Origin: Devosia sp. SD17-2
GTDB taxonomy: Bacteria > Pseudomonadota > Alphaproteobacteria > Rhizobiales > Devosiaceae
Assembly (NCBI RefSeq): GCF_029201565.1
Contig: NZ_CP104002.1
Span: forward strand, 1,939,001-2,003,000
Length of the DNA: 64,000 bases
Direction: 5' to 3'
The translations under genes were made by a program, and so were the position numbers. The notes beneath the pieces were generated by a model. It saw nothing but the letters and a program-made list of their open reading frames with translations. It searched no databases and was not told the origin of the DNA. Positions 6,872 to 24,445 of this stretch are shown here, one piece after another. How positions within the stretch are numbered: position 1 is the first letter of the stretch; every line of letters begins with the position of its first letter.

Positions 6872-6897
6872 GAGGCGAATCTCGTTTTGAATGGGCC

Positions 6898-8451: not shown

Positions 8452-8481
8452 TAGTCGATTGTCCCCCTTGCCCATTACGCT

Positions 8482-8497
8482 GTTCGGCCAGCCGAAC
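8482..8497. promoter_or_regulatory. Inverted repeat in the divergent promoter region of the D-peptide operon
   Basis: The 16 bases GTTCGGCCAGCCGAAC form two 7-base arms around a 2-base centre. They lie about 30 bp upstream of the D-aminopeptidase start and between it and the divergent XRE-cupin regulator gene. A second, AT-rich inverted repeat (CTTAATTTGTTAAG) is at 8563-8576. Either could be the operator of the adjacent regulator. This is inferred from position and symmetry only. Confidence 0.45.
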
Positions 8498-8653
8498 GCG
8501 CGTTCATGCTGTCGGGAATGCAGCTACATCACTGCTGCGATTAAGCGGCTTTTCCCTCTGCCCTTAATTTGTTAAGTGTGTGGGTGGATGTGTCAAGCGA
8601 TTTTCCTATGCGCTAAATTCCTTGATGCCCCTCCCTTTGCCAATGTCAGTTTT

Positions 8654-9268
8654 ATGGAAATTCTGGTGATTCAACCGCCGAAACTGAGTGAGTGCCTGCG
8701 AGCCGTGAGGCAGCGTCATGGGTGGACATTGCAACAGGTCAGCGATCGGACGGGCGTGGCCCTGTCGACGCTGTCAAAGGTCGAAAACGACCTGATGTCG
8801 CTGACCTATGACAAGATTGTCCAGATCTGCGAAGGCCTAGGCATTCCAGTGACAGAAATGCTGACAGTTGAGGATACAACCGGCAGGGAGCGCACTCGGC
8901 GCTCGCTTGTCGGTCCAGCCAACACGTTGGAACTTCAGACGCGCAACTATGACTACGAATATCTTTGCACAGATCTGATCAACAAGCGCATGGTGCCGAT
9001 TATCGCGCGGTTGCACTCTCGTGATATCAAGGATTTCGGTGGCCTGATGCGGCATCAGGGCGAGGAATTCGTCTATGTGATAGAGGGTGCTATTGAAATC
9101 CACACCGACCATTATGCTCCTGCCCGGATCGCCGCTGGCTCTGGTGTGTACATCGACAGTACGATGGGTCACGGCTACATCTCAGTTGGAGAGGGCGAAG
9201 CCATAATTTTGTGCGTTTGTTCAGCGCCCGAGCCCAACTTCGAACAAGTGTTAATCAGCGTTATCTAA
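8654..9268 (+). CDS. XRE-family transcriptional regulator with C-terminal cupin domain
   Basis: About 204 residues. An N-terminal helix-turn-helix (LRAVRQRHGWTLQQVSDRTGVALSTLSKVEND, about residues 11-45) is followed by a cupin barrel (about residues 125-195) with the strand FVYVIEGAIEIHTDHYAP and a GHGYIS segment. Such proteins sense small ligands with the cupin and regulate neighbouring catabolic genes. It is divergent from the D-peptide operon, which it probably controls. The start is uncertain: in-frame starts at 8576 and 8588 would add up to 26 residues, and none has a strong ribosome binding site. Confidence 0.85.
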   Translation: MEILVIQPPKLSECLRAVRQRHGWTLQQVSDRTGVALSTLSKVENDLMSLTYDKIVQICEGLGIPVTEMLTVEDTTGRERTRRSLVGPANTLELQTRNYDYEYLCTDLINKRMVPIIARLHSRDIKDFGGLMRHQGEEFVYVIEGAIEIHTDHYAPARIAAGSGVYIDSTMGHGYISVGEGEAIILCVCSAPEPNFEQVLISVI

Positions 9269-9569
9269 TCGCCTTCTCGCCCAATATTCACCGCACCAAT
9301 GCTTGAGCGGCGGGAATGGGCGCTCGTCCGTACCGCAGGAAACGACCCCATTGCTGACGTTCGACACGACATGGCAAGATCCCGAAAGCTTTCGCTACGC
9401 AGCCCGGGCCATTTTCGGCTGCGCGCTCATCCCGGCTGTTTAGCGTGCCTCTAGAGTTTTATACGACTGCATCCCGCCTCTTTCAGTTATGACGTGAAAA
9501 ACCCACGCTGGCCGGTGTTGTGTTACAGCGTGCGCTTCTGAGTTGCCGGAGCGTACTGCGAAATAATTA
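9269..9569. other. Intergenic stretch without a supported gene
   Basis: About 300 bases between the XRE-cupin gene and the GntR gene, which converge here. I see no open frame with family features, no RNA gene and no clear hairpin followed by a T-run. Confidence 0.5.
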
Positions 9570-10301
9570 TCAGCTCCCGTTTCTCTGATTGTTGGCGACA
9601 CTGTAGAGCGCGTTTGCCCGGCTGAGGTGATCCGCCATATGCTTGGCCGCGCTGATTTCGTCGCCGCTCTCGATCGCGTCCAGTATGGCTGTGTGCTCGA
9701 GGATTGTCAGCTCTTCGTGGCCGGGGCTACGGACCAAATGGGCGTGGAACTTTGCTAGCCATGAGAACAGGGCCTCACTCAAAGCAGCAAATATTGGATT
9801 GCCGCTGAGCTTGGCGATTTCGACATGAAAACGGCCGTCCAGCGTGAGAAACTCTGCAGCGGAGTGCGCGACACTCTGTTGCTCGGCGACCAGAGTGCGA
9901 ATGGGATCGATTTGCTCCTTTGCGCAGCCCCGCGCGGCAAGGCGGGCCATCTCTACCTCGAAAGTCAATCTGGCCTGCTTGAGGTGATCCAGGCTGTTTT
10001 CAGAATGCGACAAAACATGGTGCATTGTTTGCCCCAACTGGGCGATGGCCTGCTCCAGCGAAGGCTCGGCGACCTTTGGTCGTTCCCCATGCCTGATTTC
10101 AATCAGTCCCATCCGCTGCAAGTTCTGCATCGCTTCCCGGATCGCCGGTCGTCCAACCTGATAGAGTGACATCAGTTCTCGTTCGGACGGCAGAAGGTCG
10201 CCTGGGGCTACATCGCCGTTCTGAATCTGGGCAAGCAGTCGCTCTTCGATCTGATGGGAGAGTTTGCGCCGGATGATCGGGTCCTGCTGGCTGCTGTTCA
10301 T
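9570..10301 (-). CDS. GntR-family (FadR subfamily, NanR-like) transcriptional regulator
   Basis: A 243-residue regulator. A winged helix-turn-helix at about residues 10-75 includes LLPSERELMSLYQVGRPAIREAMQNLQRMGLIEIRHGERPKV, a pattern close to E. coli NanR. It is followed by an all-helical FCD ligand domain with the metal-binding spacing expected from DGRFHVEIAKLSGNPIF and HTAILDAIESGD. It is divergent from the apionate-type genes. GGTATA-type sites, the repeat recognised by NanR, lie in the intergenic region and again before the transporter operon, so it is the likely repressor of both and of itself. An in-frame ATG at 10331 is an alternative start. Confidence 0.88.
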   Translation of the reverse strand: MNSSQQDPIIRRKLSHQIEERLLAQIQNGDVAPGDLLPSERELMSLYQVGRPAIREAMQNLQRMGLIEIRHGERPKVAEPSLEQAIAQLGQTMHHVLSHSENSLDHLKQARLTFEVEMARLAARGCAKEQIDPIRTLVAEQQSVAHSAAEFLTLDGRFHVEIAKLSGNPIFAALSEALFSWLAKFHAHLVRSPGHEELTILEHTAILDAIESGDEISAAKHMADHLSRANALYSVANNQRNGS

Positions 10302-10407
10302 ACGTCGTTTTTTTCCTTCGGACTTAGCCATCCGCGCGGGTCGCGTTTGAAAGGCCCCCGAGAAGGGAGGTCGAAAAAAATCCCTATCCCGGAGCGAGTC
10401 CGAACAG

Positions 10408-10428
10408 CTGGTATTGCCAATATACCAG
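10408..10428. promoter_or_regulatory. Candidate GntR/NanR-type operator (inverted repeat)
   Basis: CTGGTAT at 10408-10414 and ATACCAG at 10422-10428 are perfect inverted arms separated by 7 bases. The right half contains TATACC, the complement of the GGTATA element bound by NanR-type regulators. It lies about 107 bp upstream of the GntR start, which suggests autoregulation. Confidence 0.6.
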
Positions 10429-10456
10429 TTTCGGCAGCCGGCAACAGTGCAAGTGC

Positions 10457-10483
10457 TTGAACCCGTAAACGGACTGGTATAAT
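10457..10483 (+). promoter_or_regulatory. Candidate promoter with overlapping GntR/NanR-type operator before the apionate genes
   Basis: TTGAAC at 10457-10462 and a perfect TATAAT at 10478-10483 are 15 bases apart, slightly short for a sigma-70 promoter. The -10 box is embedded in ACTGGTATAAT (10473-10483). The same 11 bases occur at 16068-16078 before the transporter operon. A repressor bound here would cover the -10 element. Confidence 0.6.
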
Positions 10484-10559
10484 CACTACACCATGACGTG
10501 TTTGTCGATGGACTGCGATGCGGTGCTCAGCCACATCCACCCAAATTGGGAGTGAGGAA

Positions 10560-11414
10560 ATGACAAAGATCGCGCTGTTGGGTGCAGGTGGTAAGATGGG
10601 CGTCCGCCTGTCGAAGAATCTCCAGGGCTCGCGGTTTGACGTTGCCCATGTTGAAGTGTCAGCTGAAGGTCAGAAGCGGCTGCAGGACGAGGTGGGCGTG
10701 GAATGCGTCGAGCGCGCTGATGCCCTGGCTGGCGCGAATGTGATTGTTCTTGCTGTGCCTGATCGCCTCATCGGCAAGATACTTCATCAGTTTATCGATG
10801 AGGTCGACGCAGGCACTCTGATCGTCATGCTTGACGCTGCTGCGCCCCACGCGGGCGAACTCCCAAAGCGCGACGATGTCAGCTATTTCGTCACTCATCC
10901 CTGTCACCCGCCGCTCTTCAACGATGAGACGGACCTCACGGCTAAGAAGGACTATTTTGGCGGCGTAGCTGCCAAGCAGCATATCGTCTGCGCGCTTATG
11001 CAGGGACCGGAAGAGCATTATGCGCTCGGCGAAGAGGTTGCTCGGACCATCTACAAGCCGGTCATGCGTGCGCATCGCTGCACAGTAGAAGCTATCGCTA
11101 TTCTTGAGCCTGCGCTGTCTGAAACAATCGGTGCCACGCTGTCTCTTGCCCTGCGCGAGGCGACCGATGAGGCTGTGCGACGCGGGGTTCCGAAGGAGGC
11201 GGCGCGTGATTTCATGCTGGGCCATCTCAATATCGAACTTAGTATTGCGTTCGAAGAATTCCCGGAAGGCAAGTTCTCCGATGGGGCTCTGCACGCTATT
11301 TCGGCTGCCCGTCCGGTGATCTTCAAGGAGAACTGGCTCGATGCCATCTTCGCGCCGGAAGCTGTGCTGGCCTCTGTCAAAGAGATTTGCAATCCGCCTA
11401 AAAAGGATAGCTGA
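10560..11414 (+). CDS. apnO: NAD-dependent sugar-acid oxidoreductase, probable D-apionate oxidoisomerase
   Basis: A 284-residue protein with an N-terminal Rossmann fold (MTKIALLGAGGKMGVRLSKNL, GxGGxMG). Its C-terminal helical domain is of the phosphogluconate-dehydrogenase-like type, around AHRCTVEAIAILEPALSETIGATL and EEFPEGKFSDGALHAI. The ApnO family converts D-apionate to 3-oxo-isoapionate by oxidation coupled to isomerisation. The assignment rests on the fold and on its neighbours: the lactonase, RuBisCO-like protein and DUF1537 kinase of the same pathway follow directly. GTGAGGAA precedes the ATG. Another beta-hydroxyacid dehydrogenase activity cannot be excluded. Confidence 0.78.
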   Translation: MTKIALLGAGGKMGVRLSKNLQGSRFDVAHVEVSAEGQKRLQDEVGVECVERADALAGANVIVLAVPDRLIGKILHQFIDEVDAGTLIVMLDAAAPHAGELPKRDDVSYFVTHPCHPPLFNDETDLTAKKDYFGGVAAKQHIVCALMQGPEEHYALGEEVARTIYKPVMRAHRCTVEAIAILEPALSETIGATLSLALREATDEAVRRGVPKEAARDFMLGHLNIELSIAFEEFPEGKFSDGALHAISAARPVIFKENWLDAIFAPEAVLASVKEICNPPKKDS

Positions 11415-11476
11415 CCTGTAGCGAGGCGGGCGTCAGCGGCGCTGAGAGCAGAAAATCCGGGCAGGGAGTGACTCGG

Positions 11477-13351
11477 GTGCAGGAAGAAAAGCTACTCGAA
11501 ATCTATGGCACATCGCAGCCCCCTTCGGAGGTGCGATGCGTCGCTATCGGCGCTGTGGAGCTTCGCCTAGAGGATGGCGCGGTCCGGGGGCTTTATTTCG
11601 ATGGGGTGGAGGTATTGCGAGGCGTGGATTACCCCGTTCGCGATGCCAATTGGGGGACATATGACGCAGAAACTCTCGATGATGAGTTGCTGCAATCCGC
11701 CTCAAGTCTGACTTTTCGCCGCCGTTTTCGGACGGGGGCGGGGAAGTTGGTCGGGAATTTCTCCATCGAGTGTTCGAGCCAGGGCGTCGTCGACCTCTCC
11801 CTGGATCTCGAGACCCTTAATGATATCGAGGTCAATCGCGCAGGCTTCGTTATCCTTCACCCCGCCATTTGTGCCGGATGGCCCATTCGGGTGACGCACA
11901 GTAACGGGCGCATCACCGAGGGTGTCTTCCCGTCACGAATTTCCGCCGGCCAGCCCTTCTTCGATATCACAGCTATCTCTCAATCCGTGAACGGCGTCGC
12001 CGCGGTTCTCGAGTTCAAGGGAGAGGTGTTTGAAATGGAGGACCAGCGCAACTGGTCCGATGCTTCATACAAGACCTATTGCCGGCCGCTGGGGTGGGAA
12101 CGCCCATATGTTCTCGCCGCGGGCACAAGAATTCAGCAGTCCATTCGGGTTGCAATGAAGGCAGAAGGTCAGACCCGTCATGGTGGACGCCCGCAAAGCC
12201 TGAGCCTGGGAGGTCTGACCGGCCGGCCGATCCCGGAACTTGCCTTCGCGCTGCAAAACGGATGGCAAGGCACTGCTCAGGCGTTAGACGCATTTGGCAA
12301 TACGCCGGTACTTCTCCGCATTGATCTTGCTGATGATCAGTGGGCAAGCGGCCTGCAGTTGCTTCTCACGTCCCTTTCGGCGCGTCCCCTGGATATGGAA
12401 GTTGTTGTGCCGGACCACACAGGCGAGGCTCAGGCTCGGCTTCTGCAGCTTCACGACGTCATGTGTGCGGTGTCAAAGATGCCGAGGCATCTCACAGTGG
12501 TGCCGACTGCCTATTTGAAGAGCTACCAGCCCGACGAGGCATGGCCAAGCGGCCTGTCGCTGGTCGATGCCGCAGCCATGGCGCGCAGCGTATTTGGGAG
12601 TAGCCGGATCGGTGGGGGTGTTCTGACCAACTTCACCGAGCTTAATCGCTGCCCGACCGCTGCCATTGCCGGTGACTTTGTAACCCACAGTACGACAGCA
12701 ATCGTTCATGCGGCGGATGACCTCTCTGTCATGCAGACCCTGGAAGCGCTGCCGCAAATATTTTCCAGTGCCGAAACGCTGGGGGAGGGCAGGCCGTGTC
12801 GGCTCGGGCTCGTATCGATCGGCATGCGGTCAAACCCCTATGGGGCATCTCTGGCTGCCAACGACGCGCGCGTCCGGCGCCCCATGGCTATGGACGACCC
12901 TCGCCAGCAGGGTCTGTTCGCCGCCGCATACATGGTGGGTGCAGTTGCGGCTACCCAAGGCAGCAATGTCGAGTTTATGGCGTTGGCCTCGCCGTCCGGG
13001 CCTTTCGGCCTGGTGGATGCGCAAGCTGTTTACCCTGCCTATCATGCCTTCCTGGGGCTGCAACGCCTTGCCGGGCACGACCGACGCACAGTCGACACGC
13101 CGCAGTGGTGCGCAGCCGTGGCTGCACGCGTTGGGGAGGCTGAAGGCATGGTGCTGGCGAATTTAACCTCAGAGCCACAGCTCCTCCACCTTCCAAATTC
13201 GGTGCGGTTTGTTGTCCTTGATCAGTCGCAACAGGATGCGAAGTGGCTAGCTGAGACGACGCGCCAATCAAGCGATGAGATCGCGCTGGGACCCTACGTA
13301 GTGGCCTTTGCCACTAGGGGCTCAGATGACCTGTTCCAGGGCCGCCTATGA
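11477..13351 (+). CDS. apnL: Probable D-apionate lactonase
   Basis: A large cytoplasmic protein of about 624 residues without a signal peptide. I recognise no short catalytic motif. Its size and its place between the oxidoisomerase and the RuBisCO-like protein match ApnL of described D-apiose/D-apionate clusters, where it hydrolyses D-apionolactone to D-apionate. The start is a GTG: GGGAG at 11464-11468 fits the GTG at 11477 better than the GTG at 11468, which overlaps the ribosome binding site. It ends 67 bases before the next start, in the same transcript. The function is inferred mainly from context. Confidence 0.7.
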   Translation: MQEEKLLEIYGTSQPPSEVRCVAIGAVELRLEDGAVRGLYFDGVEVLRGVDYPVRDANWGTYDAETLDDELLQSASSLTFRRRFRTGAGKLVGNFSIECSSQGVVDLSLDLETLNDIEVNRAGFVILHPAICAGWPIRVTHSNGRITEGVFPSRISAGQPFFDITAISQSVNGVAAVLEFKGEVFEMEDQRNWSDASYKTYCRPLGWERPYVLAAGTRIQQSIRVAMKAEGQTRHGGRPQSLSLGGLTGRPIPELAFALQNGWQGTAQALDAFGNTPVLLRIDLADDQWASGLQLLLTSLSARPLDMEVVVPDHTGEAQARLLQLHDVMCAVSKMPRHLTVVPTAYLKSYQPDEAWPSGLSLVDAAAMARSVFGSSRIGGGVLTNFTELNRCPTAAIAGDFVTHSTTAIVHAADDLSVMQTLEALPQIFSSAETLGEGRPCRLGLVSIGMRSNPYGASLAANDARVRRPMAMDDPRQQGLFAAAYMVGAVAATQGSNVEFMALASPSGPFGLVDAQAVYPAYHAFLGLQRLAGHDRRTVDTPQWCAAVAARVGEAEGMVLANLTSEPQLLHLPNSVRFVVLDQSQQDAKWLAETTRQSSDEIALGPYVVAFATRGSDDLFQGRL

Positions 13352-13418
13352 GTTCGCATCGAACCGACAGTCATCGGGCCCCGATATTAGCCAAAATATT
13401 CCTGCGGAAGGATCGCCT

Positions 13419-14675
13419 GTGAGTGATCGCATAATTGCCCATTACCTGATCGAAACCGCATCAGATGTCCGCAAGGCCGCTGAAGTCATGGCGGGGGAGC
13501 AATCCTCGGGGACTTTTGTCGCCGTGCCTGGTGAGACACCAGAACTGACGGAGCGAGCGGGAGCGCAGATCGTTGGACTGGAAATGCTCGAGCCTGTCGA
13601 CCAGCCTTCGCTTCCCGGGGCAAAGCCGGCGGGCGTGGGCGAGCAATATCAGCGTGCTCGCGTTACGCTGTCCTGGCCGATCGAGAATATGGGCCCCTCA
13701 CTGCCCAACCTTGTCGCGACAGTCGCCGGAAATCTTTTCGAATTGCAGCAGTTCTCGGGGCTGCGCCTGCTCGACCTCGAGCTGCCTACACCGTTCTTTT
13801 CGTCCTATCCGGGCCCTCAATTCGGTGTGGGTGGGACGCGCGCCCTCAGCGGTGTGGATGCCGGCCCGCTTATCGGCACTATTATCAAGCCCAGCGTCGG
13901 ATTTGGACCGGAAGAAACTGCGGGCCTCGTGAAAATCCTGTGCGAGGGCGGTATCGACTTCATCAAGGACGATGAGCTGCAGGCAAACGGCCCGTATTGC
14001 CCGTTCGCCTATCGCGTCGACGCGGTAATGGCAGTGATCAATGAGCACGCCGATCGAACGGGGAAGAAGGTGATGTTCGCCTTCAACGTCACCGGTGACC
14101 TCGACGAGATGCGCCGAAACCATGATCTCGTCCTCGAGAAGGGCGGCACCTGCGTCATGGCCAGCCTCAACTCGGTGGGCCTGGTTGGGATGATCGAGTT
14201 GCGCCGCCACGCTCAACTTCCCATCCACGCCCATCGCAATGGCTGGGGCTATCTCTCGCGCCACCCGATGCTGGGATGGTCCTACGTGGCCTGGCAGAAA
14301 ATATGGCGCCTCGCCGGTGCGGACCACATGCACGTCAATGGCCTGCGCAACAAGTTCTCGGAAGGCGACGAGAGCGTGCTCGCCTCGGCGCGCGCTTGCC
14401 TGACCCCAATGTCAGAGCAGTCGCCGTGTATTGCCATGCCCGTGTTCTCTTCTGGTCAGACGGTCAGCCAGCCCCCCGATACCTATGCAGCACTCGGGTC
14501 TCTCGACCTGATCTACGCTGCTGGTGGTGGCGTGGTGGCGCATCCTGACGGCATTAGCGCCGGCGTGCAAAGCCTGAGAGAGAGCTGGACCGCAACTGTG
14601 GCGGGCATTCCACTCAAAACCTATGCGAAAGATCATCCCGCTTTGGCCCGGGCTCTTGAAAGCCTCAGTCGATGA
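13419..14675 (+). CDS. oiaX: RuBisCO-like protein, probable 3-oxo-isoapionate-4-phosphate transcarboxylase/hydrolase or decarboxylase
   Basis: A 418-residue RuBisCO-like protein. TIIKPSVGFG carries the first active-site lysine (Lys157). GGIDFIKDDE holds the carbamylated lysine (Lys183) and the metal ligands Asp185/Glu186. HAHRNGWGYLSRHP, a loop lysine in NGLRNKFSEGDE and the phosphate-binding glycines AAGGGVVAHPDG follow. In the apionate pathway two RLPs are known: OiaX splits the intermediate to 3-phosphoglycerate and glycolate, and OiaC decarboxylates it to L-erythrulose 4-phosphate. No erythrulose-phosphate isomerase gene lies nearby, which favours OiaX weakly. The GTG start at 13419 has GGAAGG 7 bases upstream; a frame opening at 13308 would overlap the lactonase gene. 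Confidence 0.8.
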   Translation: MSDRIIAHYLIETASDVRKAAEVMAGEQSSGTFVAVPGETPELTERAGAQIVGLEMLEPVDQPSLPGAKPAGVGEQYQRARVTLSWPIENMGPSLPNLVATVAGNLFELQQFSGLRLLDLELPTPFFSSYPGPQFGVGGTRALSGVDAGPLIGTIIKPSVGFGPEETAGLVKILCEGGIDFIKDDELQANGPYCPFAYRVDAVMAVINEHADRTGKKVMFAFNVTGDLDEMRRNHDLVLEKGGTCVMASLNSVGLVGMIELRRHAQLPIHAHRNGWGYLSRHPMLGWSYVAWQKIWRLAGADHMHVNGLRNKFSEGDESVLASARACLTPMSEQSPCIAMPVFSSGQTVSQPPDTYAALGSLDLIYAAGGGVVAHPDGISAGVQSLRESWTATVAGIPLKTYAKDHPALARALESLSR

Positions 14676-16054
14676 GCATTCGCGAAAATGGTCGACTGCT
14701 ATCTTGGTACGGTGACGACTTCACCGGCTCTGCAGCTGTTCTGGAGGTTCTCGCCTTCGCCGGTGTGGAGGCCGTGTTGTTTCTCGACGTGCCTACCCAG
14801 GCGCAGCTGGCTGCATTTCCAAACGCGCAGGCAATCGGTCTCGCCGGCGTGGCGCGATCGTTCTCGCCCAAATGGATGGACGAAAACCTGCCGCCGATAT
14901 TTGAGGCCCTCGCAAGGCTCGGGGCGCCCCTTGTGCACTACAAGATCTGTTCGACGCTCGACTCCTCTCCGGAAATCGGCTCGATCGGACGCGCTGCAGA
15001 AATCGGCCAGCGGCATCTCGACAGTGCTTGGTCGCCAGTCCTCGTGGCGGCACCTCCGATCGGCCGCTATCAGGCCTTTGGGCATCTCTTTGCTAGTTCG
15101 AGCCAAGGGACCGTGCGCCTCGATCGTCACCCGGTGATGAGCCGCCACCCCGTCACGCCGATGGGAGAGAGCGACGTCGCACTCCATCTCTCGAAGCAGA
15201 CCTCCGAGAAAGCGGGGTGCATCGACCTGCTTGGGCTTAGAGGGCCCGACAAGGGTTTGGGCGCGCTCAAGGCGCTGCGCAATGAAGGCGCTCGTCTCAT
15301 AACTTGCGACACGATTGACCAGTCCGACCTCGTGGCTGCAGGGCAACTAATCTGGAACCATAGGGCAGAGGCGCCGCTGGTGATTGGCTCGCAGGGGATC
15401 GAGTACGCTCTGATAGCCTATTGGAACGCGATTTCCGCTTTGCCCGTGAGAGCGGCGCCCCAAAGTGTCGGAGATGTCAGCCAGATCGCCGCAGTCTCAG
15501 GGTCAGTGTCCGCGACCACCGCCGAGCAGATTGCCTGGGCAGGCAACAATGGTTTTGGCCTGATTGCTTTCGATGCTGCTGCGGTGGCGGATCCCGCTGG
15601 TCGGGCGAGAGCCGTAAATGACGCAGTTGAGGATTCCAAGGCTGTCCTGTCGTCCGGCAAGAGTGTGCTCGTGCATAGTGCCCGGGGACCTGACGATCCG
15701 GCCGTTGAAACCTTCCGCAAGGCAGTGAGCGCATCCGGCCTCGATTTGGCGGAGGCCAATGCGGAAGTGGGCAAGGCACTCGGTCAAGTCCTGTCCCGAC
15801 TGCTGCAGGAAACCAGTATTCAGCGCGCGGTGATTTCGGGGGGAGACACTTCCGGACACGCGACACGTCAACTGGGGGTCGACGCACTGACTGCCTTGGC
15901 TCCCACTGTTCCAGGAGCCGCGCTCTGCGCGGCCCACGGAACCCTAGCCCGTCCCCTGCAACTGGCGCTCAAGGGCGGACAGATGGGGACGCCCGACTAT
16001 TTTGGTTGGATCAGAGCAGGTGGTGGCGCCGCCTATCGAAACGGCCAGCGCTAG
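14672..16054 (+). CDS. oiaK: DUF1537 four-carbon acid-sugar kinase family, probable 3-oxo-isoapionate kinase
   Basis: A 460-residue kinase with the N-terminal signature YGDDFTGSAAVLE (residues 13-25) and the C-terminal nucleotide-binding motif ISGGDTSGHATRQLG, both typical of the DUF1537 acid-sugar kinases. The ATG overlaps the TGA of the RuBisCO-like gene (ATGA). It would phosphorylate 3-oxo-isoapionate to give the substrate of that protein. The order oxidoisomerase, lactonase, RLP, kinase is coherent. It is the last catabolic gene before the transporter operon. Confidence 0.82.
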   Translation: MSIRENGRLLSWYGDDFTGSAAVLEVLAFAGVEAVLFLDVPTQAQLAAFPNAQAIGLAGVARSFSPKWMDENLPPIFEALARLGAPLVHYKICSTLDSSPEIGSIGRAAEIGQRHLDSAWSPVLVAAPPIGRYQAFGHLFASSSQGTVRLDRHPVMSRHPVTPMGESDVALHLSKQTSEKAGCIDLLGLRGPDKGLGALKALRNEGARLITCDTIDQSDLVAAGQLIWNHRAEAPLVIGSQGIEYALIAYWNAISALPVRAAPQSVGDVSQIAAVSGSVSATTAEQIAWAGNNGFGLIAFDAAAVADPAGRARAVNDAVEDSKAVLSSGKSVLVHSARGPDDPAVETFRKAVSASGLDLAEANAEVGKALGQVLSRLLQETSIQRAVISGGDTSGHATRQLGVDALTALAPTVPGAALCAAHGTLARPLQLALKGGQMGTPDYFGWIRAGGGAAYRNGQR

Positions 16055-16067
16055 TCATGACTGGCCA

Positions 16068-16078
16068 ACTGGTATAAT
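16068..16078 (+). promoter_or_regulatory. Candidate GntR/NanR-type operator with -10 box before the transporter operon
   Basis: ACTGGTATAAT is an exact repeat of the 11 bases at 10473-10483 and again contains TATAAT. It is 60 bp upstream of the binding-protein start and just after the kinase gene, and indicates a second, co-regulated promoter. No good -35 box is visible, and ACTGGCCA just before it may be a second half-site. Confidence 0.6.
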
Positions 16079-16137
16079 GACATGAACTTGTGGTGAGCTC
16101 CCTGTGCAAAGGCGGCCCCATAGGAGGAGGAGTGAAC

Positions 16138-17166
16138 ATGAAGACCGCATTCAAATACGTCCTGTTTGGCAGTGCCCTTAGCAGCCTGGCTCTCGTCGCC
16201 ACCCCCAGTTTCGCATCTCCCGATGCGCCGGTTATTGCTCTCGCGAACTCGTTTTATGGCAATACCTGGCGCCATCAGATGGTCGAAGCTTTCGAAGATG
16301 CGGCCGAGGAAGCCAAGGCTGCGGGGCAGATTGCTGACTACATCGTGCTTAATGGCGATGGCAGCGTAGTGCAGCAGAATAGCCAGATGGCCGAGTTGAT
16401 ACTCAAGGGTGTCGACGTCATCGCGATCAACGCCGCTTCTGAAACGGCAGTTAACGGGATGATCGAGCGCGCCTGTGCCGCCGGCATCATTGTCATCAGC
16501 TTTGACTCTGTGGCCTCTGCACCCTGCAATTATCAGCTCAATTTCGACTTCCTTGGCTATAAGGCCGAGCAGGCGGAAGCCGTGATGCAAATGATTGGCG
16601 GCGAAGGCAATGTGATCGTCGTGCGCGGCGTCGCCGGCTCTGCGCCAGACGAAGCGATGTATAGTGCGCAGCAGTCCGTGCTGGAGAAGTATCCGGACGT
16701 GAACGTTGTCGCCACCGTCTACGGACAGGCCACCGCGTCGGTCGCACAATCTGCTATCGCCAACGTCCTGCCGAGCCTGCCGCGCGTCGACGCTGTGCTG
16801 GGTCAGGGGGGGAGCGATGACGTCGGTATCGCGCAGGCCTTCGTGCAGTATGGCGGTGAATACGAGGGCAACATGCCCATTATCGAGGGCGGTGGCGGCA
16901 CCGACTTTATTCGCTGGTGGGCCGAAGCGAACGCCGAAAATGGCTATGAAACGATCTCTATGAACACCACGCCCGGGATTGGCGGGGCCGCCTTCTGGCT
17001 TGGCCTCTCTCTGCTGCAGGGTGCGGAGGCTCCCAAGCAGATGCTGATGCCGGTTGCTACTGTAACCAATGAGAATCTGGCGGACTATGCCGATGTGGCT
17101 CCCGGCCGCATTATTAGCCCGTCCTATTCTCTGGAATGGGTTCAAACCAATCTGCTGTCGAACTGA
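16138..17166 (+). CDS. Sugar ABC transporter substrate-binding protein (ribose/RbsB type)
   Basis: A 342-residue periplasmic binding protein. A signal peptide covers about residues 1-26 (MKTAFKYVLFGSALSSLALVATPSFA-SP). The body is a two-lobed sugar-binding fold with the segments ELILKGVDVIAINAASETAVNGMIE and VRGVAGSAPDEAMYSAQQSVLEKYPDV. AGGAGGAG precedes the ATG at 16138 at good spacing, so an upstream start at 16090 was rejected. It is the first gene of the transporter operon and is followed by a strong hairpin. The ligand is probably D-apiose, apionolactone or apionate by context, but this is unproven. Confidence 0.9.
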   Translation: MKTAFKYVLFGSALSSLALVATPSFASPDAPVIALANSFYGNTWRHQMVEAFEDAAEEAKAAGQIADYIVLNGDGSVVQQNSQMAELILKGVDVIAINAASETAVNGMIERACAAGIIVISFDSVASAPCNYQLNFDFLGYKAEQAEAVMQMIGGEGNVIVVRGVAGSAPDEAMYSAQQSVLEKYPDVNVVATVYGQATASVAQSAIANVLPSLPRVDAVLGQGGSDDVGIAQAFVQYGGEYEGNMPIIEGGGGTDFIRWWAEANAENGYETISMNTTPGIGGAAFWLGLSLLQGAEAPKQMLMPVATVTNENLADYADVAPGRIISPSYSLEWVQTNLLSN

Positions 17167-17187
17167 CAGCCACGACGCATGATTGTG

Positions 17188-17209
17188 CCGGAGGCTCAAA
17201 AGCCTCCGG
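17188..17209 (+). terminator. Intercistronic hairpin between binding protein and ATPase-permease genes
   Basis: CCGGAGGCT and AGCCTCCGG form a perfect 9-bp stem with a 4-base loop, followed by TAGGTTTT. It sits 21 bases after the binding-protein stop and before the next gene. It probably acts as an attenuator or 3'-end stabiliser giving excess binding protein over membrane parts, as is common in ABC operons. Confidence 0.75.
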
Positions 17210-17234
17210 TAGGTTTTAAACTCAAGGTTGCTCC

Positions 17235-19694
17235 ATGCCTGTTGCTGCTGCCTCCTCGCCTGTGACCCAAAGTCCCACACGGCCAGATGGTGAGATCTTC
17301 CTGACCTTGAAGGGGATCACCAAGAGCTATGGGCCGACACTCGCCAATTCCCTGATCGACCTGAATGTGGCGCGGGGAGAGGTGATCGGGCTGGTTGGCG
17401 GCAATGGCGCGGGCAAGTCTACCCTGATGAAAATCCTCTGCGGCGTGACGGCCCCGACCTTGGGGGAAATCGCCGTTTGCGGAGAGAGCCTTTCGTTCGC
17501 GACTTATGACACGGCGTCTGCACAGGCGCATGGCGTCCGCATGGTGCATCAGGAGCTGTCCCTGTGCACCAATCTCTCCGTAGCAGAGAACTTTTTTATC
17601 GAGTCTCCAGGGGGCGCGACTCCCGCACCAGGTTGGCGCCGCCGATACCGCGAGAGGGCACAGGCGGCGCTCGATGATGTCTTTCCGGACCACCGCATCG
17701 ATGTCGACGCAGCGATCTCACGTCTGAACATAGGCGAGCGCCAGATGGTGGAAATTGCGCGCGCCTGTGCAACGCCTGGCGTCCAATTGATCATTCTCGA
17801 TGAGCCGACATCATCACTTGGTCCAGAGCGGTCCGGCCAGCTTCGCAGTTATGTTTCGCGCCGCGCTGCCGAAGGGATGGCGTTCATTTTCATCAGCCAC
17901 AAACTTAATGAAGTCATTGAGGTTGCGACGACTATTGCCCTTTTGCGCAATGGCAAGCTGGTCTGGCGAGGCGCCGGTTCGGAGGCCTCAGTCGAGCAAT
18001 TGGTATCCCTCATGGGGGGCGCCAAGGAGACGACGAAGCTCGCGCGCACCGAACCCTCTGATGTCTCTGGCGAGACATTGGTCACTTTAGATGCCAGTTG
18101 GCGTGCCGATGGCGGAGGGCCTATCGAACTGCGTCGCGGTGAAACGATTGGTCTGGCGGGGCTTGAGGGCAGTGGCCAAGCAGAGTTGCTGCATGCAATA
18201 TTCGAGGGCAATCACTCCGGGGTGAAAAGGCAGGCAGCCGCGACTTTCGTTGCCGGCGATCGAAAGAAAGAAGGCATATTTCCGCTGTGGGATGTGCTCT
18301 CAAACATCTCCATTGGACGCCTTGCCAAGCGCTCGGAACTTTCTTGGATTTCGGCAAGCGATGAACAATCGGCCGCAGTCAGCGCGGCTTCCAAACTGAG
18401 ACTCGATCCGGAGCGTATGCAATCTGGGATCACCGAGTTGAGCGGAGGGAACCAGCAAAAAGCCCTTGTTGCGCGCTCGCTCGTTAATGAAGCGCCGATC
18501 ATCTTGCTGGACGACCCCATGCGCGGCGTTGATATCGCCACGAAGCAGGATTTCTATTCCCTGATAGACGAAATTGTCCCGACTGGACGAACAGCCATAT
18601 GGCATACAACCGAAGATCGCGAGCTCCTTAGGGCGGATCGCGTTCTGGTACTCTCGCACGGAAAGATTGTGCGGGAGCTTGTCGCCAGTGAGATTTCAGA
18701 AGCGTCCATCGTGGAAGCGTCATTCTCCGGTGAGAAGACTTCTGCGACAGCGAGCGGCGGTTCTACTCTCGATTGGCGCCGGCTCTTCGTCACGGCAATG
18801 CCCTATATCAGCCTCGCGGCTGTATTTTCACTGATGGTACAGTCAAATCCGATGGTGGCGACCGCCTTCGGGCTCGACCTCCTGCTTCTGCCTGCCGTTG
18901 CCCTGGCCTTGGTGGCAATCGCGCAAATGTTCATTGTAGGTGGCAGTGAAATCGACCTGGGGGCAGGTGCGTTCGCGGGGTTGATCAGCGTGCTGAGCGC
19001 CACCCTTCTCTTTGATCAGCCGCTCCTCGGCGTGGGAAGTATCCTGCTGGCAGTGCTCGGATATGCAGCTATGGGTGCGATCATACAGGCGCGGAAAATT
19101 CCGGCGATTGTCGTTACCCTCGGGGCGTCCTTCATCTGGCTGGGAATTGGACTGTCCATTCAGCCAACGCCAGGTGGCAGCAGCCCAGCGTGGCTCTCAG
19201 CCATCGTCAGTTGGTCTTTTGCGGGAATTCCAACCGCCATCATCCTGCTGGCCATCGTTGCCGCAGTAGCCCTCTTCATCGACCGAACCCCGCTTGGTGT
19301 TGCCTTGCGCGGATTTGGCAATAACCCAGCTGCGATGACCACCAGTGGATGGTCTGCACTTCGTTACAGCGTCATCCGTTATCTCATCGCGGGAGCATTT
19401 GCATGCGCTGCGGGGATGATGCTGACGGCCGTGAACACGGCGAGCGATATCAACTCGGGCAATTCCTATACTTTGCTTAGTGTGGCCGCAGTGGTGATGG
19501 GTGGTTGTGCACTCTTCGGCGGGCTCATAACGCCACTTGGCGTGGTAGTCGGTGCGGTCACCCTGTCTTTGATCGGCGCGCTGCTTGGCATCCTGAATGT
19601 ATCAAGTGACTTCAACGCTGCCACGCAAGGCGGGGTGCTGCTTGCAATCCTCGCGCTTCGTAGCCTAGCCAGCCGCGACACGGAGGAAAACTGA
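17235..19694 (+). CDS. Sugar ABC transporter: RbsA-type double ATPase fused to an RbsC-type permease
   Basis: An 819-residue single chain. Residues about 15-245 form an ABC domain with Walker A GGNGAGKSTLMKIL, an atypical signature LNIGERQMVEIARA, Walker B LIILDEPTSSLG and FISHKL. Residues about 250-495 are the second, degenerate ABC domain of sugar ATPases (GLAGLEGSGQAELLHAIF, then LSGGNQQKALVARSL and LDDPMRGVD). From about residue 510 to the end lies a multi-helix RbsC-like permease (FIVGGSEIDLGAGAFAGLISVLSATLLF, RKIPAIVVTLGASFIWLGIGL). RbsA and RbsC are normally separate proteins. The reading frame is uninterrupted and no stop or start lies at the junction. The gene overlaps the following permease gene (TGATG). 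Confidence 0.92.
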   Translation: MPVAAASSPVTQSPTRPDGEIFLTLKGITKSYGPTLANSLIDLNVARGEVIGLVGGNGAGKSTLMKILCGVTAPTLGEIAVCGESLSFATYDTASAQAHGVRMVHQELSLCTNLSVAENFFIESPGGATPAPGWRRRYRERAQAALDDVFPDHRIDVDAAISRLNIGERQMVEIARACATPGVQLIILDEPTSSLGPERSGQLRSYVSRRAAEGMAFIFISHKLNEVIEVATTIALLRNGKLVWRGAGSEASVEQLVSLMGGAKETTKLARTEPSDVSGETLVTLDASWRADGGGPIELRRGETIGLAGLEGSGQAELLHAIFEGNHSGVKRQAAATFVAGDRKKEGIFPLWDVLSNISIGRLAKRSELSWISASDEQSAAVSAASKLRLDPERMQSGITELSGGNQQKALVARSLVNEAPIILLDDPMRGVDIATKQDFYSLIDEIVPTGRTAIWHTTEDRELLRADRVLVLSHGKIVRELVASEISEASIVEASFSGEKTSATASGGSTLDWRRLFVTAMPYISLAAVFSLMVQSNPMVATAFGLDLLLLPAVALALVAIAQMFIVGGSEIDLGAGAFAGLISVLSATLLFDQPLLGVGSILLAVLGYAAMGAIIQARKIPAIVVTLGASFIWLGIGLSIQPTPGGSSPAWLSAIVSWSFAGIPTAIILLAIVAAVALFIDRTPLGVALRGFGNNPAAMTTSGWSALRYSVIRYLIAGAFACAAGMMLTAVNTASDINSGNSYTLLSVAAVVMGGCALFGGLITPLGVVVGAVTLSLIGALLGILNVSSDFNAATQGGVLLAILALRSLASRDTEEN

Positions 19695-20671
19695 TGGACG
19701 CGCTGCGCTCATTCGTGAGGACAAATCGTTGGGTCTGGTCCGCATTGGCGGTCATGCTGCTTTGGATCGTCCTGGCCGCGGTGACTGGTCGATGGAGCCT
19801 TGCCAGCCTGTCAGGTATTGCGTTGTCCGCCTCGTTCCTGGCGCTTGCCGGTCTAGGACAAATGCTGGTTGTAACGACGGGAAAGGGCAATATCGATCTA
19901 TCGGTCGCCACAGTCATGACGCTTAGCGCTTATCTGGGCATGCTGATCATCCGTGGTTCGGACGACATGCTGATAGTCGGGCTATTGGCGACTCTTGGCC
20001 TTGGCATCGTCGTGGGTATGATAAATGCCTTTCTGGTCATCGCTATCCGCATCCCGGCGATTATCGCGACCCTTGCGTCCGGATACGTTCTCGCGACAGC
20101 GACGCTATTGGCCAACCGGTCGCTGCAGGGCGCAACGGTCAGTCCACTGCTCAAGGGCTTTGCGAGTGGACGGATCATGGGAGTTCCCCTCATGGCAGTA
20201 GTTGCGGTGGTGGTCGCGGCCGGCTTCGCCGTTGTCCTGCGCAAGACCGCATATGGGCAGCAGCTTTCTGCCGTGGGACAGAGCCGTGCAGCAGCGAGCG
20301 TGGCCGGCGTGCGTGTCAATCGCGTCGTGGCGATTGCCTTTGTAGTCTCTTCCGTGCTGGCAGCATTCAACGGCTTGATGCTGGGTGCCTATGTCGGCGG
20401 GGCGTTTCTGGAGATGGGGCAGCCCTATCTCCTGCAATCGGTGGCTGTTGTGGTTATCGGCGGTACCCTGATCTTTGGCGGGTCGGCGACCGCAGCCGGC
20501 ACGTTGTTCGCGTCCGTACTCCTTGTTCTCGTAGTCACTTTGATGCAGATCATGGGCTTGCCCAGGGGTGCCCAGGACATGATCCAAGGGGCTGTAGTTA
20601 TCCTTGTACTCGCCTTGGCGGTGCAGGGCGGCACATTCAAAGCGGCAAAACCGCAAGCAAATTTGGCATGA
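19694..20671 (+). CDS. Sugar ABC transporter permease (RbsC type)
   Basis: A 325-residue inner-membrane permease with many hydrophobic helices. The segments LAGLGQMLVVTTGKGNIDLSVATVMTLSAYLGM and AIRIPAIIATLASGYVLATATLLANR are typical of the RbsC family. It is translationally coupled to the fused ATPase-permease gene. With that protein it would complete a transporter with two different permease halves. The transcript probably ends shortly after it, although I see no clear terminator. Confidence 0.92.
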   Translation: MDALRSFVRTNRWVWSALAVMLLWIVLAAVTGRWSLASLSGIALSASFLALAGLGQMLVVTTGKGNIDLSVATVMTLSAYLGMLIIRGSDDMLIVGLLATLGLGIVVGMINAFLVIAIRIPAIIATLASGYVLATATLLANRSLQGATVSPLLKGFASGRIMGVPLMAVVAVVVAAGFAVVLRKTAYGQQLSAVGQSRAAASVAGVRVNRVVAIAFVVSSVLAAFNGLMLGAYVGGAFLEMGQPYLLQSVAVVVIGGTLIFGGSATAAGTLFASVLLVLVVTLMQIMGLPRGAQDMIQGAVVILVLALAVQGGTFKAAKPQANLA

Positions 20672-20800
20672 ATGGCTTGGGGGGGCGGCATGACGTTCTT
20701 TGCCCTCCCTCACAGTGAATGACATGGTTGCAGCAGTGAGCGTCAATCCCGTGTCGGCAGCCTTAGGGTCAAGCCCGCTCTTGCGAGGGCCCGCTGACTG

Positions 20801-21946
20801 TTGATTGTCGTTTGGATCTGGCAATCAACAGGCTTGGCCTTTTTCCTGGGCCAGCTTGAGTCCGGTGATTTGAACCTTACGAACATCGCGGTCGGCATTT
20901 TGCAGGGCGCGCAGGGCGACGACAGCGCTCACGTCCAGGCCAAGGTTGACGCGGCGGTGATGTTCACGGAAACCCTCGATACTCCGAAAAAGATCGAGGC
21001 GTATCAAGGCGAAGCAGCCGCTGACGCGGCGCGGGCTTTTCTTGATGGGATAGACAAGGATACCCCTGCGACGCCGGAAAGCGTCAATGAAGCTGTAGAG
21101 GACGTAATTGCAGGGCCTGGCGATGGACAGGATCCTGGCGACCCGGATCCAACGGACCCCAATCCTGGTGACCCCGATCCCGGTAATCCCGAACCGGACC
21201 CGGTCGCCGTAACCGTCCGAGATGCGGCTCTTTCTGAGATCGCGATGGATGACGGCGGGATCAATATGTGGAAGGGGCGCGGCAACACAGCTGACCACTT
21301 CTCGGTCACATCAGTTGATCTTGAAGGCGACGATGTTCCGGATGTTGAGTTGGCGCTTGGCGTACACTATCGAGGCGGCAACGCCCCCGAGGGCGAGACC
21401 GGAATAATCCAGGATGCGAACGAGGACGGTGTCTATTCGTTCGTGCCCGGAAATGATGTGATGTTCAGGTTTTCGGTCGCCAGTCTGGTCGATCAAGTTG
21501 ATCTGAGCGGATTACTCGATCGGTATGACGTCAAACTGTTCGTAGATCATAACAGTGGGGAGGGCGTTGCTGAGTTCGGTGAGCTCAATCTGATCGCCGA
21601 AGGTGGAAATCTTGGGGTCGTAGACAATGGCGCTGGAGATACCGACGCCTATTCCGGCTTCGCTTGGGATTTCCCGGCTTACGAAGAGCGCTTGGTAGAT
21701 GACGTCGGAAACCCGGTTAACGGCGACAGTCGTGCATCAGTGACCCAGAACGTACAGGCAGTCCAGTGGTACCAGCCAAATGAACAGGGCGAACTGTTCA
21801 GTTCGGGCTACGCACTGGCGGCCGGAGAGTACGAGATCTCTCTCAAGCTCTTTGAAAAGGGTAGTGACACGGCAATTGCCGAGAACAATATCGTCGTCAT
21901 TGGTGGGGCCGATACGGTGCCAGCGGTCGACGCATTCTCGCTGTAG
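20801..21946 (+). pseudogene. C-terminal part of a secreted or surface protein with a DUF4214-like end domain (5'-truncated)
   Basis: The frame opens at a TTG without a ribosome binding site. Its first recognisable residues, STGLAFFLGQLESGDLNLTNIAVGILQ, look like the middle of a DUF4214 domain whose beginning is missing. After about residue 100 comes a Pro/Asp/Gly repeat linker (PGDPDPTDPNPGDPDPGNPE). A roughly 240-residue domain follows with Asp-rich, possibly calcium-binding segments (DLEGDDVPDVELALG, DANEDGVY). There is no signal peptide. I read it as the remnant of a larger type-I-secreted or cell-surface protein cut at its 5' side. A short independent protein is possible but less likely. 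Confidence 0.6.
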
Positions 21947-22050
21947 GCCAACGATTTGTCCGAACGCCAGCGCTTGGAGAGATCGGGGCTGCGTATCTGA
22001 TCTGATTCAAGCGCCGGCTTCGAAAAGTTCACTCTGCTAAAGCAACCAAA

Positions 22051-22108
22051 AGCAGCCCCGGCGCACCATTGCCGGGACTGCTACGCGGGCCGGGGCAAGC
22101 CCGGGCCC
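22051..22108. repeat. Two adjacent GC-rich hairpins downstream of the IS5-type element
   Basis: AGCAG-CC-CCGGC and GCCGG-GA-CTGCT (22051-22082) form one interrupted stem. GGGCCGGGGC and GCCCGGGCCC (22087-22108) form a second stem with one mismatch and a 2-base loop. They lie just beyond the end of the transposase frame. They may be a terminator, a REP-like repeat or part of the insertion sequence end. Confidence 0.5.
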
Positions 22109-22112
22109 GACT

Positions 22113-22541
22113 CTAGGTGACCGACTCATAACTTCGCAACCAGATACGGATTGAAGCGAGTTGGACTGATGCCAGGAAATTGTCGTCTCGCTTGTCGTAT
22201 CGGGTTGCGATTGCCCTGAAGTGTTTGAGTTTGTTGAAGTAACGTTCGACAGCGTTGCGCTGGCGATAGACCCAGTGGCTGAATGGGAAGGTTTGCACGC
22301 GGTTGGGCATGGCGCGGATATTGGCCCATGCACCGCGCTCGGCCATGGTGCTGCGCAGGGCATCACTGTCGTAGGCTCGGTCTGCGAGCAGGATATTTCC
22401 AGCGGACAGGGTGGCAAACATGTCCGCTGCTGATCGCCCATCATGGGCCTGGCCTTCGGTCAGTTTGAGCTGGATCGGCCGCCCCTGGGCATCGACCAGC
22501 GCATGGATCTTGGTGGTCAGGCCGCCGCGCGAACGACCCAT
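22113..22541 (-). CDS. IS5-family transposase OrfB (frameshift product)
   Basis: 142 residues from the first ATG. GRSRGGLTTKIHALVDAQGRPI is the start of the catalytic core. ILLADRAYDSDALR holds the second catalytic Asp, and YRQRNAVERYFNKLKHFRAIATRYDK holds the catalytic Glu and the YREK-like signature. It overlaps OrfA and is probably made as an OrfAB fusion. No stop interrupts it, so the element may still be active. Confidence 0.85.
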   Translation of the reverse strand: MGRSRGGLTTKIHALVDAQGRPIQLKLTEGQAHDGRSAADMFATLSAGNILLADRAYDSDALRSTMAERGAWANIRAMPNRVQTFPFSHWVYRQRNAVERYFNKLKHFRAIATRYDKRDDNFLASVQLASIRIWLRSYESVT

Positions 22542-22888
22542 GCAACGGGATCGCTCGTCTTTTTTTGACCGTTGGCGGCGTGCTGGTGAACCCGGATCGA
22601 GGACGAGTCGATCATCTGCACGTCGCCATTGTAAGCGGCTGATACAGCGTCAAGAATGCGCGCCCAGTGGCCGGCCCTGCGCCACCGGTTGAAGCGGTTC
22701 ACGCAGGTCGTGTGCGGGCCATACCGCGTCGGGATGTCGGCCCAGGGCGCGCCCGTGCGAAGCCGCCAGAAGATGCCGTTCAGAACACGCCGGTCATCGG
22801 CGCGCGGAACGCCGCGCACCTTCGTCGGAAGCAGCGGCTGGATCACAGACCACTCAAAATCCGTAAGATCAAAACGCGCCATCATCAC
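22517..22888 (-). CDS. IS5-family transposase OrfA
   Basis: 123 residues. The N-terminal DUF4096-like domain (FDLTDFEWSVIQPLLP, then DDRRVLNGIFWRLRTGAPWADIP) is followed by the first catalytic aspartate in MIDSSSIRVHQHAA. The frame ends shortly after the A7 slippery run in GQKKTSDP, so the catalytic domain is completed only by frameshifting into OrfB. An AGGAGG precedes the ATG codons. Confidence 0.85.
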   Translation of the reverse strand: MMMARFDLTDFEWSVIQPLLPTKVRGVPRADDRRVLNGIFWRLRTGAPWADIPTRYGPHTTCVNRFNRWRRAGHWARILDAVSAAYNGDVQMIDSSSIRVHQHAANGQKKTSDPVAWVVRAAA

Positions 22889-23068
22889 CTCCTGTCCACC
22901 AAAGGGAAGGAATCACAACAGCAGCACTTTGGGAATCCCGTTAATGGGTATGTGACCTAGGGCGCATTGGGCGCCTGAACGATCGTTATATCTCCCAATA
23001 GACAAGAGGCCCTCATGGCCACGAACAACTTCGCTGACGCGTTGTCGGCCGTGAATTGCTGTTCGCGG

Positions 23069-23152
23069 TCATATGAAGGAAATCAAGGCTAGAGAGTTGA
23101 CCAAGCCGATTAGAAAGCACAACGCAACTAAGCCGTAGAGCAGCCGGTCCAT
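23069..23152 (-). CDS. Tiny single-span membrane peptide (27 residues)
   Basis: The minus strand from ATG 23152 reads MDRLLYGLVALCFLIGLVNS and continues hydrophobically to ISFI before a TGA. GGGAGG lies 8 bases upstream of the ATG, which is a strong ribosome binding site. The peptide is almost entirely one membrane helix. It is antisense to the phage module and could be a small toxin-like or regulatory peptide. Nothing further supports a function. Confidence 0.4.
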   Translation of the reverse strand: MDRLLYGLVALCFLIGLVNSLALISFI

Positions 23153-23227
23153 CTTACTTGCCTCCCAAGAGGTGCGTATTTGGGCACGCAATCACAAAGC
23201 CCACAAATCAATTCACAGGAGGCCTTC

Positions 23228-23929: not shown

Positions 23930-23941
23930 GAGGCCAACACT

Positions 23942-24318: not shown

Positions 24319-24324
24319 AGAAGT

Positions 24325-24358: not shown

Positions 24359-24445
24359 AGCCGCGGTGCTAAGTCAAAACGCCCCGAGCCCGAGGCTACA
24401 ATAGTCCTTCTCCAGGAAATGCCGAAAGGGACGGAAAGGAATATT

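Follow-up and report, generated by a model that had tools for sequence, protein, structure and literature searches.

Sequence evidence for one NanR-type operator shared by the enzyme and importer operons of a sporadic D-apionate-type cluster in Devosia sp. SD17-2

Are the enzymes and the importer of a D-apionate-type catabolic cluster in Devosia sp. SD17-2 switched together, by which regulator, and for which substrate? The cluster occupies positions 9570-20671 of a 64,000-nucleotide stretch of contig NZ_CP104002.1 (assembly GCF_029201565.1; the window, in whose numbering its features are given throughout) and is made up of a regulator gene, read divergently, and seven further genes that share one direction and encode four enzymes and a three-part importer. 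Its predicted role is the uptake and degradation of D-apionate, the acid corresponding to the plant sugar apiose. A preliminary description of this DNA had proposed that both operons share one repeated operator of a NanR-like regulator. After comparison with homologous loci, we consider it probable, with moderate confidence, that the cluster is an apionate regulon of sporadic distribution, controlled by a single NanR-type repressor.

The 11-mer ACTGGTATAAT, previously noted as an exact repeat with an embedded TATAAT, indeed lies on the plus strand at 10473-10483 and 16068-16078, at the cluster's two promoters, and these are its only copies in the 4,231,113-base genome (reversed control, 0 copies; chance expectation about 0.6 copies, by arithmetic at 60% GC). 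With at most one mismatch, 4 matches were found in the window versus 0.14 expected from shuffles; a one-mismatch copy at 10419-10429 on the minus strand faces the regulator gene, and another, at 42768, was rejected as a site because it falls inside an Rnf-Nqr membrane-protein domain. The extended form CTGGTATRATSA was read genome-wide at the two cluster sites only, among 63 matches listed. Further regulon members in this genome were sought with CTGGTATRAYSA and none is claimed: it has five exact matches, of which only the two cluster sites carry RAT, the three others reading GAC at that place.

We accordingly predict three operators. The one facing the regulator gene (10408-10429, minus strand) has its ACTGGTAT core at 10429-10422 and an ACCA half-site at 10412-10409. 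That of the enzyme operon (10473-10493, plus strand) consists of TGGT at 10475-10478, ATCA at 10482-10485 and ACCA at 10490-10493, and that of the importer operon, with its embedded TATAAT, lies at 16068-16080 on the plus strand. An inverted CTGGTAT/ATACCAG pair described earlier is found where it had been placed, as CTGGTAT-N7-ATACCAG at 10408-10428, but it is no separate element, being the TGGT (1-4) and ACCA (16-19) outer half-sites of the regulator-facing operator; the same N7 pair recurs at the regulator gene of two homologous loci (L033 and L037). In an alignment of the window genome (G000) with Devosia sp. YIM 151766 (G071) and Pelagibacterium montanilacus (G125), the divergent region is best conserved at its two sites, which stand 52 bp apart here and 55 bp apart in both other genomes; the ATACCAG side of the regulator-facing operator is conserved in both, and AACTGGTATAATGACAT before the gene of the solute-binding protein (SBP) is invariant in all three while its flanks differ.

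Homologous loci were collected by a scan with the RuBisCO-like protein (RLP) of the cluster (of at least 577 loci, the 80 best that come from named genomes), with more stretches from further searches, and were sorted as regulator-positive at 140 bits or more (n = 53, the window included) or regulator-negative below 80 bits (n = 34, 17 of them at least 20 kb long). Neither set includes L076, whose regulator (85 bits) is incomplete at the end of a contig, or L099, a paralogue stretch without RLP; L083-L091 are short copies of stretches L092-L099, and L092-L098 came from the regulator search and are hence regulator-positive by choice. Eighteen plasmid loci, chosen by us from 40 listed of 366 records, played no part in defining the pattern. 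Anywhere in the locus, CTGGTATRATSA occurs in 40 of the 53 regulator-positive loci, as against 2/17 long and 2/17 short regulator-negative ones, and the reversed pattern in none; 300 letter-shuffled CTGGTATRATSA patterns reached a mean of 0.1 and a maximum of 3 of the 53. A count free of prior assumptions, made on 300-bp upstream regions, returned CTGGTATAAT as the top shared 10-mer (25/53 positive versus 2/34 negative loci); among 9-mers, TGGTATAAT and CTGGTATAA tie with a GC-rich word, and among 8-mers, GC-rich or coding words outrank ACTGGTAT. Plasmid loci gave 5/11 with the regulator versus 0/7 without it.

When all loci were combined and only the zone from 320 bp upstream to 40 bp inside estimated starts of cluster genes was counted, exact CTGGTATRATSA was present in 44/64 regulator-positive versus 4/41 regulator-negative loci, and with one mismatch in 55/64 versus 6/41; the reversed control gave 0 and 0 at both settings. 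A two-mismatch setting was dropped, as its 62/64 versus 11/41 came with reversed-control counts of 13/64 and 0/41. Fisher p values for the link (1.5e-9 and 1.8e-13) are too small, since the loci are related, and among representatives under 80% RLP identity the exact site is present in 24 of 35 with the regulator. Of the regulator-negative loci with a site (L008, L029, L026 and L041), the first two are on contigs of 7.3 and 7.9 kb, and the sister species of L026 (L027, L028) carry the regulator at the border of the retrieved sequence. Among 136 genomes of the family searched with the regulator (8 matches at E 1e-40), ACTGGTATRATSA occurs in 6/8 with the regulator (11 sites) versus 8/128 without (10 sites), and its reversed form at 3 sites in all 136; we took the 10 sites in regulator-negative genomes as chance, since all fall inside mechanical open reading frames (ORFs) of at least 100 aa, that of G115 at the extreme 5' end of its ORF. 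Absence of the 11-mer from homologous loci, which was to have refuted the earlier proposal of one operator common to both operons, was thus not observed; the site tracks the presence of the regulator, and the comparison strengthens the proposal.

The operator also reaches beyond clusters of this layout. Two loci (L019 and L051) carry it before SBPs of the SBP_bac_1/SBP_bac_8 kind and three (L043, L044 and L059) before an SBP of the 5ibq kind, so that the site follows the pathway across importer kinds. In genome G011, three further sites (L159, L160 and L161) adjoin a paralogue of the regulator (64 to 99 bits); two of the sites precede an operon for an AP_endonuc_2 protein, which we take to be OiaC-like, an ApnO relative and an apiose-dehydrogenase-like gene. 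The operator and its flank are present thrice in G011, with no pathway operon after L161, as if a small block had been duplicated.

The regulator gene (9570-10331, minus strand) encodes a GntR/FadR protein with FCD and GntR domains that passes the cut-off of the NanR subfamily (NF003011, 279.8 versus 260 bits) and has E. coli NanR as its best solved relative (143.7 bits), confirming its earlier description as NanR-like. NanR residues Glu58, Arg59, Gly68, Arg69 and Arg73, which include the base-contact arginines (59, 69 and 73), are kept in all 53 aligned regulators. The operator of E. coli NanR has been described as (GGTATA)3 (PMC8012715) or as direct repeats of TGGTATAW (PMC4494728). The earlier comparison with the GGTATA repeats that NanR binds holds in part: both 11-mers contain GGTATA and the regulator-facing site GGTAT, but with one GGTATA per site, two or more direct repeats at the 8-9 bp period of E. 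coli were not found. The zinc ligands Asp172, His176, His222 and His244 and the residue Arg128 are likewise kept in the window regulator and in 53/53 aligned proteins, Ser218 is Thr and Gln221 is Glu in all 53, and the positions of His214 and Asn215 are missing. In NanR (PMC8012715), Arg128 forms a salt bridge to Neu5Ac and the zinc touches carboxyl and hydroxyl groups of the ligand. Because the zinc ligands and this carboxylate-binding arginine are conserved throughout, the pocket suggests a hydroxy-acid inducer such as D-apionate, which would suit its conserved part better than the sugar apiose. Domain and NCBIfam searches detected no sialic acid genes in the cluster, and the best match to the nanA model, elsewhere in the genome, has 248 bits against a cut-off of 382. 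Public records name such regulators NanR or "sialic acid-inducible nan operon repressor".

The importer bears on which substrate is taken up. It consists of an SBP (16138-17166, plus strand, ORF from 16090; Peripla_BP_4, best solved relative 4pe6 at 212 bits), an ABC ATPase fused to a permease (17235-19694, plus strand, 819 aa; ABC_tran twice plus BPD_transp_2), which has co-located relatives in other loci, and a second permease (19694-20671, plus strand; BPD_transp_2, 103 bits). The lack of an apiose dehydrogenase in the cluster, noted before, was borne out, and none close was found in the genome by a Gfo/Idh/MocA search: the best relative has 27% identity (90 bits), with 94 bits in G071, 80 bits in G125, and 49% and 350 bits in G011. 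Among 87 loci compared, a Gfo/Idh/MocA dehydrogenase accompanies the apiose-type ATPase in 14/14 and the fused importer without that ATPase in 0/13 (Fisher 5e-8, inflated by the relatedness of the loci), and it is present in 5/5 plasmid loci with the apiose-type ATPase. Because dehydrogenases go with the apiose-type importer and are missing where the fused importer occurs without it, what the fused-ATPase system takes up is most likely apionate or apionolactone, as judged from these gene associations; the proposal that the cluster handles either compound directly gains support from this pattern and from the lack of a close apiose dehydrogenase in the genome. In Paraburkholderia sprentiae, an SMP-30-type lactonase comes after the fused importer, and the dehydrogenase together with an ApnL-like protein after the apiose-type one, an arrangement that would favour the lactone for the fused system. 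In L096 (407-6061, genome G011), the fused ABC and lactonase genes are each split over several frames, as might be expected of a decaying copy or of poor sequence.

The fused importer might instead bring in D-apiose, to be oxidized by an unlinked dehydrogenase of another family. The 17 distant Gfo/Idh/MocA matches in G000, the families outside our search, and G011, which combines the fused importer with apiose-dehydrogenase-like genes elsewhere, would allow for this. We consider it unlikely given the contrast in dehydrogenase occurrence just described, and since two fused-importer loci (L049 and L079) have neither dehydrogenase nor lactonase in the examined stretch. The window SBP is also not close to 5ibq, which we take to be an apiose-holding SBP: 5ibq is absent among the 45 matches listed for the window SBP, but is matched at 450 bits by the SBP of the other importer (L043).

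Domain and NCBIfam searches upheld the proposed order of oxidoisomerase, lactonase, RLP, DUF1537 kinase and importer, all enzyme genes being on the plus strand: an ApnO-like D-apionate oxidoisomerase (10560-11414, ORF from 10518; PGDH_C, 212 bits; best solved relative 5t57, 329 bits), an ApnL-like D-apionolactonase (11468-13351; NF049900), an RLP of the OiaT/OiaX group (13419-14675, ORF from 13308; NF042437) and an OiaK-like DUF1537 kinase (14672-16054; NF042436). The starts of the ApnO-like protein, the RLP and the SBP are likely at 10560, 13419 (a GTG after GGAAGGA) and 16138, downstream of the mechanical ORF starts. Apionate families are the best NCBIfam models for the lactonase, RLP and kinase, yet these proteins miss the equivalog cut-offs (383/750, 464/700 and 489/700 bits, respectively), so that their function is to be read as "works like" and not as membership.

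OiaX, the top family model for the RLP, was rejected because of this miss together with the lack of RpiB; the cut-off of 700 bits is equally above seven other RLPs tested (404-473 bits), with no positive control passing it. An RpiB-type isomerase is presumably the family that acts downstream of OiaX, and PF02502 has no match in the genome (a control search was positive in 7 of 14 genomes); one match to TIM lies far from the cluster. The NCBIfam matches of the window proteins include no curated OiaT model, and a source gives the name 3-oxoisoapionate-4-phosphate transcarboxylase/hydrolase to two of the 120 RLP relatives listed (71-72% identity). Because of these two relatives and the missing RpiB-family match, the RLP is more likely an OiaT-like transcarboxylase/hydrolase than a decarboxylase.

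The missed cut-offs also leave room for another branched sugar acid as substrate, for example hamamelonate, and an RLP has been reported in a D-hamamelose pathway (Kim 2018, as cited in PMC8914248 and PMC10176493). We regard this as quite unlikely, considering that ApnO-like and ApnL-like proteins stand together in the cluster and that the two named relatives point to 3-oxoisoapionate chemistry. Better candidates for such a route appear to be four loci with LysR-linked RLP-kinase pairs (L174, L175, L181 and L183), which have no ApnO, NanR-like regulator or operator. Two of these have an SDR and a KdgT-type permease and one has TRAP genes; from their gene content they possibly represent a different branched-acid pathway such as that of hamamelose.

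How the regulator might act was considered from the anatomy of 73 CTGGTAT sites in 41 of the 53 regulator-positive loci (62 after removal of redundancy). Conserved in the 62 sites, beyond the anchor, are a preceding AA, the letters R-A-T-S-A that follow and A[T/C]CA at 16-19, giving a plan of TGGT at 1-4 followed by inverted half-sites at 8-11 and 16-19. They face the enzyme operon, the importer operon and the regulator gene, and 64 of the 73 point towards a cluster gene. TATRAT lies within the site in 29/33 enzyme-facing, 7/7 SBP-facing and 7/15 regulator-facing cases, and TTG at -17 to -15 in 18/33, 1/7 and 2/15; regulator-facing sites keep CTGGTAT. The predicted promoter of the enzyme operon (10457-10483, plus strand) has TTG at 10457-10459 and TATAAT at 10478-10483, and its spacer of 15 nt is the reason why a standard promoter scan (16-18 nt spacers) misses such promoters. 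The placement of the operator on a predicted -10 region makes repression by occlusion likely. In five loci (L012 5912, L033 9253, L037 9382, L056 9289 and L095 2298), the operator (CTGGTATG...) includes the codon at which the regulator gene is predicted to start; the protein may there cover the start codon of its own gene, the message perhaps being leaderless or nearly so.

The short spacer, the promoters that a standard scan does not report and the SBP-facing sites mostly lacking TTG could also befit an activator of both operons that binds the same sites. This is a highly doubtful alternative, because a protein on this site would cover a -10-like hexamer and so normally keep polymerase out, and because NanR, the nearest characterized relative, is a repressor (PMC8012715). 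Least probable of all is that the 11-mer is merely a good promoter element (TGnTATAAT being an extended -10) with the regulator binding elsewhere, which the TATRAT counts at enzyme- and SBP-facing sites, the TTG at enzyme-facing ones and the orientation of 64/73 sites would favour, but which conflicts with the tracking of regulator presence across loci, with regulator-facing sites that keep CTGGTAT but have TATRAT in 7/15 only, with SBP-facing sites kept though TTG is present in 1/7, with the occurrence of only two copies in the genome, and with L074, where the site is reversed between the regulator and RLP genes, both on the plus strand, as a pure -10 would not explain.

Under the repressor reading that we prefer, the regulator would, without inducer, occupy (A)A-CTGGTATRATSA operators, often with the additional A[T/C]CA box. 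Since these overlap the -10 of the enzyme and importer operons and precede the regulator's own gene, all three would be off. D-apionate or apionolactone would be taken up by the fused-ATPase ABC importer, and an alpha-hydroxy acid, most likely apionate or 3-oxo-isoapionate, would bind at the zinc and Arg128 and release the repressor. ApnL, ApnO, OiaK and the OiaT-like RLP would then presumably yield 3-phosphoglycerate and glycolate, the products of the described route. The DNA binding, the repression, the inducer, the imported substrate and the RLP product in this scheme are predictions from sequence.

Several observations weigh against the scheme. Exact CTGGTATRATSA is lacking near a gene start in 20 of the 64 regulator-positive loci, many of them Burkholderiales (nine: L057, L063, L069, L072, L171, L178, L182, L184 and L187), and betaproteobacterial clusters are mostly without the exact site; the Burkholderiales loci L043, L044 and L059 do have it, before an SBP gene, and L040 is among the 20 merely because its site falls beside the counting zone. 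Scored strictly, as A[CT][CG]A at 16-19, the outer half-site occurs in 16/33 enzyme-facing, 5/15 regulator-facing and 0/7 SBP-facing sites, and the wing residue Asn89 of NanR is His in 51/53 aligned regulators. Three of the enzymes (lactonase, RLP and kinase) score under their equivalog cut-offs, and the glcD model for glycolate oxidase, sought as possible backing for the OiaT route, reached at best 241.7 of 567.9 bits and speaks neither for nor against that route. Of the 13 fused-importer loci, five (L003, L009, L010, L011 and L013) are cut at the importer and L014 has an SBP and a permease of the apiose-type importer, leaving 7/13 clean, and the genome of one of these seven (L096, G011) has a dehydrogenase elsewhere.

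Catabolic pathways for D-apiose and D-apionate were reportedly described by Carter et al. in 2018. As in those pathways (cited in PMC6302742), ApnL, ApnO, OiaK and an RLP are found here in one cluster; unlike them, the present cluster has no dehydrogenase, has a fused-ATPase importer whose SBP is no close relative of 5ibq, and has the regulator and operator described here. Rhodobacteraceae strain LCG007 grows on D-apiose and has a D-apiose cluster that shares the lactonase, oxidoisomerase, kinase and RLP but, unlike this one, has a dehydrogenase (PMC11747546); the words regulator and GntR are absent from the text of that article. With E. coli NanR, the regulator shares its subfamily, FCD metal ligands, Arg128, base-contact arginines, a GGTATA half-site and sites at promoters. 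It differs in its predicted control of apionate-type genes, in a single GGTATRAT core accompanied by ATSA and A[T/C]CA boxes in inverted orientation, where E. coli has three direct GGTATA repeats, and in the substitutions Asn89His, Ser218Thr and Gln221Glu and the absent His214/Asn215 positions. GntR-family operators are described as habitually having a second, weaker box at 7-12 nt from the main one (PMC4494728), compared with which the box here has a fixed place and is not found at every site. The parts of the pathway are of known kinds, and what is new is the operator form, the predicted NanR-type switch on an apionate-type pathway and the distinct importer; no description of this operator was found in the open-licence literature searched, a search that did not extend to Carter et al. 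2018 and supplements and is no proof of absence.

Among the 136 genomes of the family, 8 have the regulator (E 1e-40), 3 the fused importer (E 1e-150) and 9 the RLP (E 1e-60). A genome labelled as the same species has only scattered matches to positions 5500-25400 of the window, none of them spanning the cluster (40 of 91 candidates scored). Such a distribution fits gain by transfer or repeated loss. Transposase genes of the IS4/5 and rve types lie near the cluster (22037-22888 and 45762-46661), in line with a mobile, accessory region. Adjoining the cluster, beyond its regulator gene, are genes for a beta-lactamase-fold hydrolase (6898-8475) and an HTH-cupin regulator (8576-9268). Farther away, at 40695-42821, an IS66 transposase and an Rnf-Nqr subunit share a single reading frame, with an NqrF-like protein and ApbE behind it; we read this from the sequence as the in-frame fusion of an insertion sequence with the end of an nqr-like operon.

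More broadly, and only tentatively, a zinc-dependent, hydroxy-acid-sensing branch of the NanR family may be the general switch for the catabolism of branched sugar acids in Alphaproteobacteria, and Gamma- and Betaproteobacteria provide examples as well. Its TGGTATRATSA operator would mark pathway modules in whatever place they occur, among them the RLP route, a second route of OiaC-like type and importers whose SBPs are of three or more kinds, and the fused-ATPase system would be a dedicated importer of D-apionate or its lactone. For these regulators, the NanR and sialic-acid-repressor names given by public pipelines probably mislead. The defined operator allows genomes to be scanned for regulon members, including unlinked transporters and dehydrogenases, the importer pattern lends itself to a direct binding test for an SBP specific to apionate or apionolactone, and the conserved pocket to a direct test of the inducer. 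If this reading is true, D-apionate as such would serve in nature as a nutrient or as a cross-fed product.

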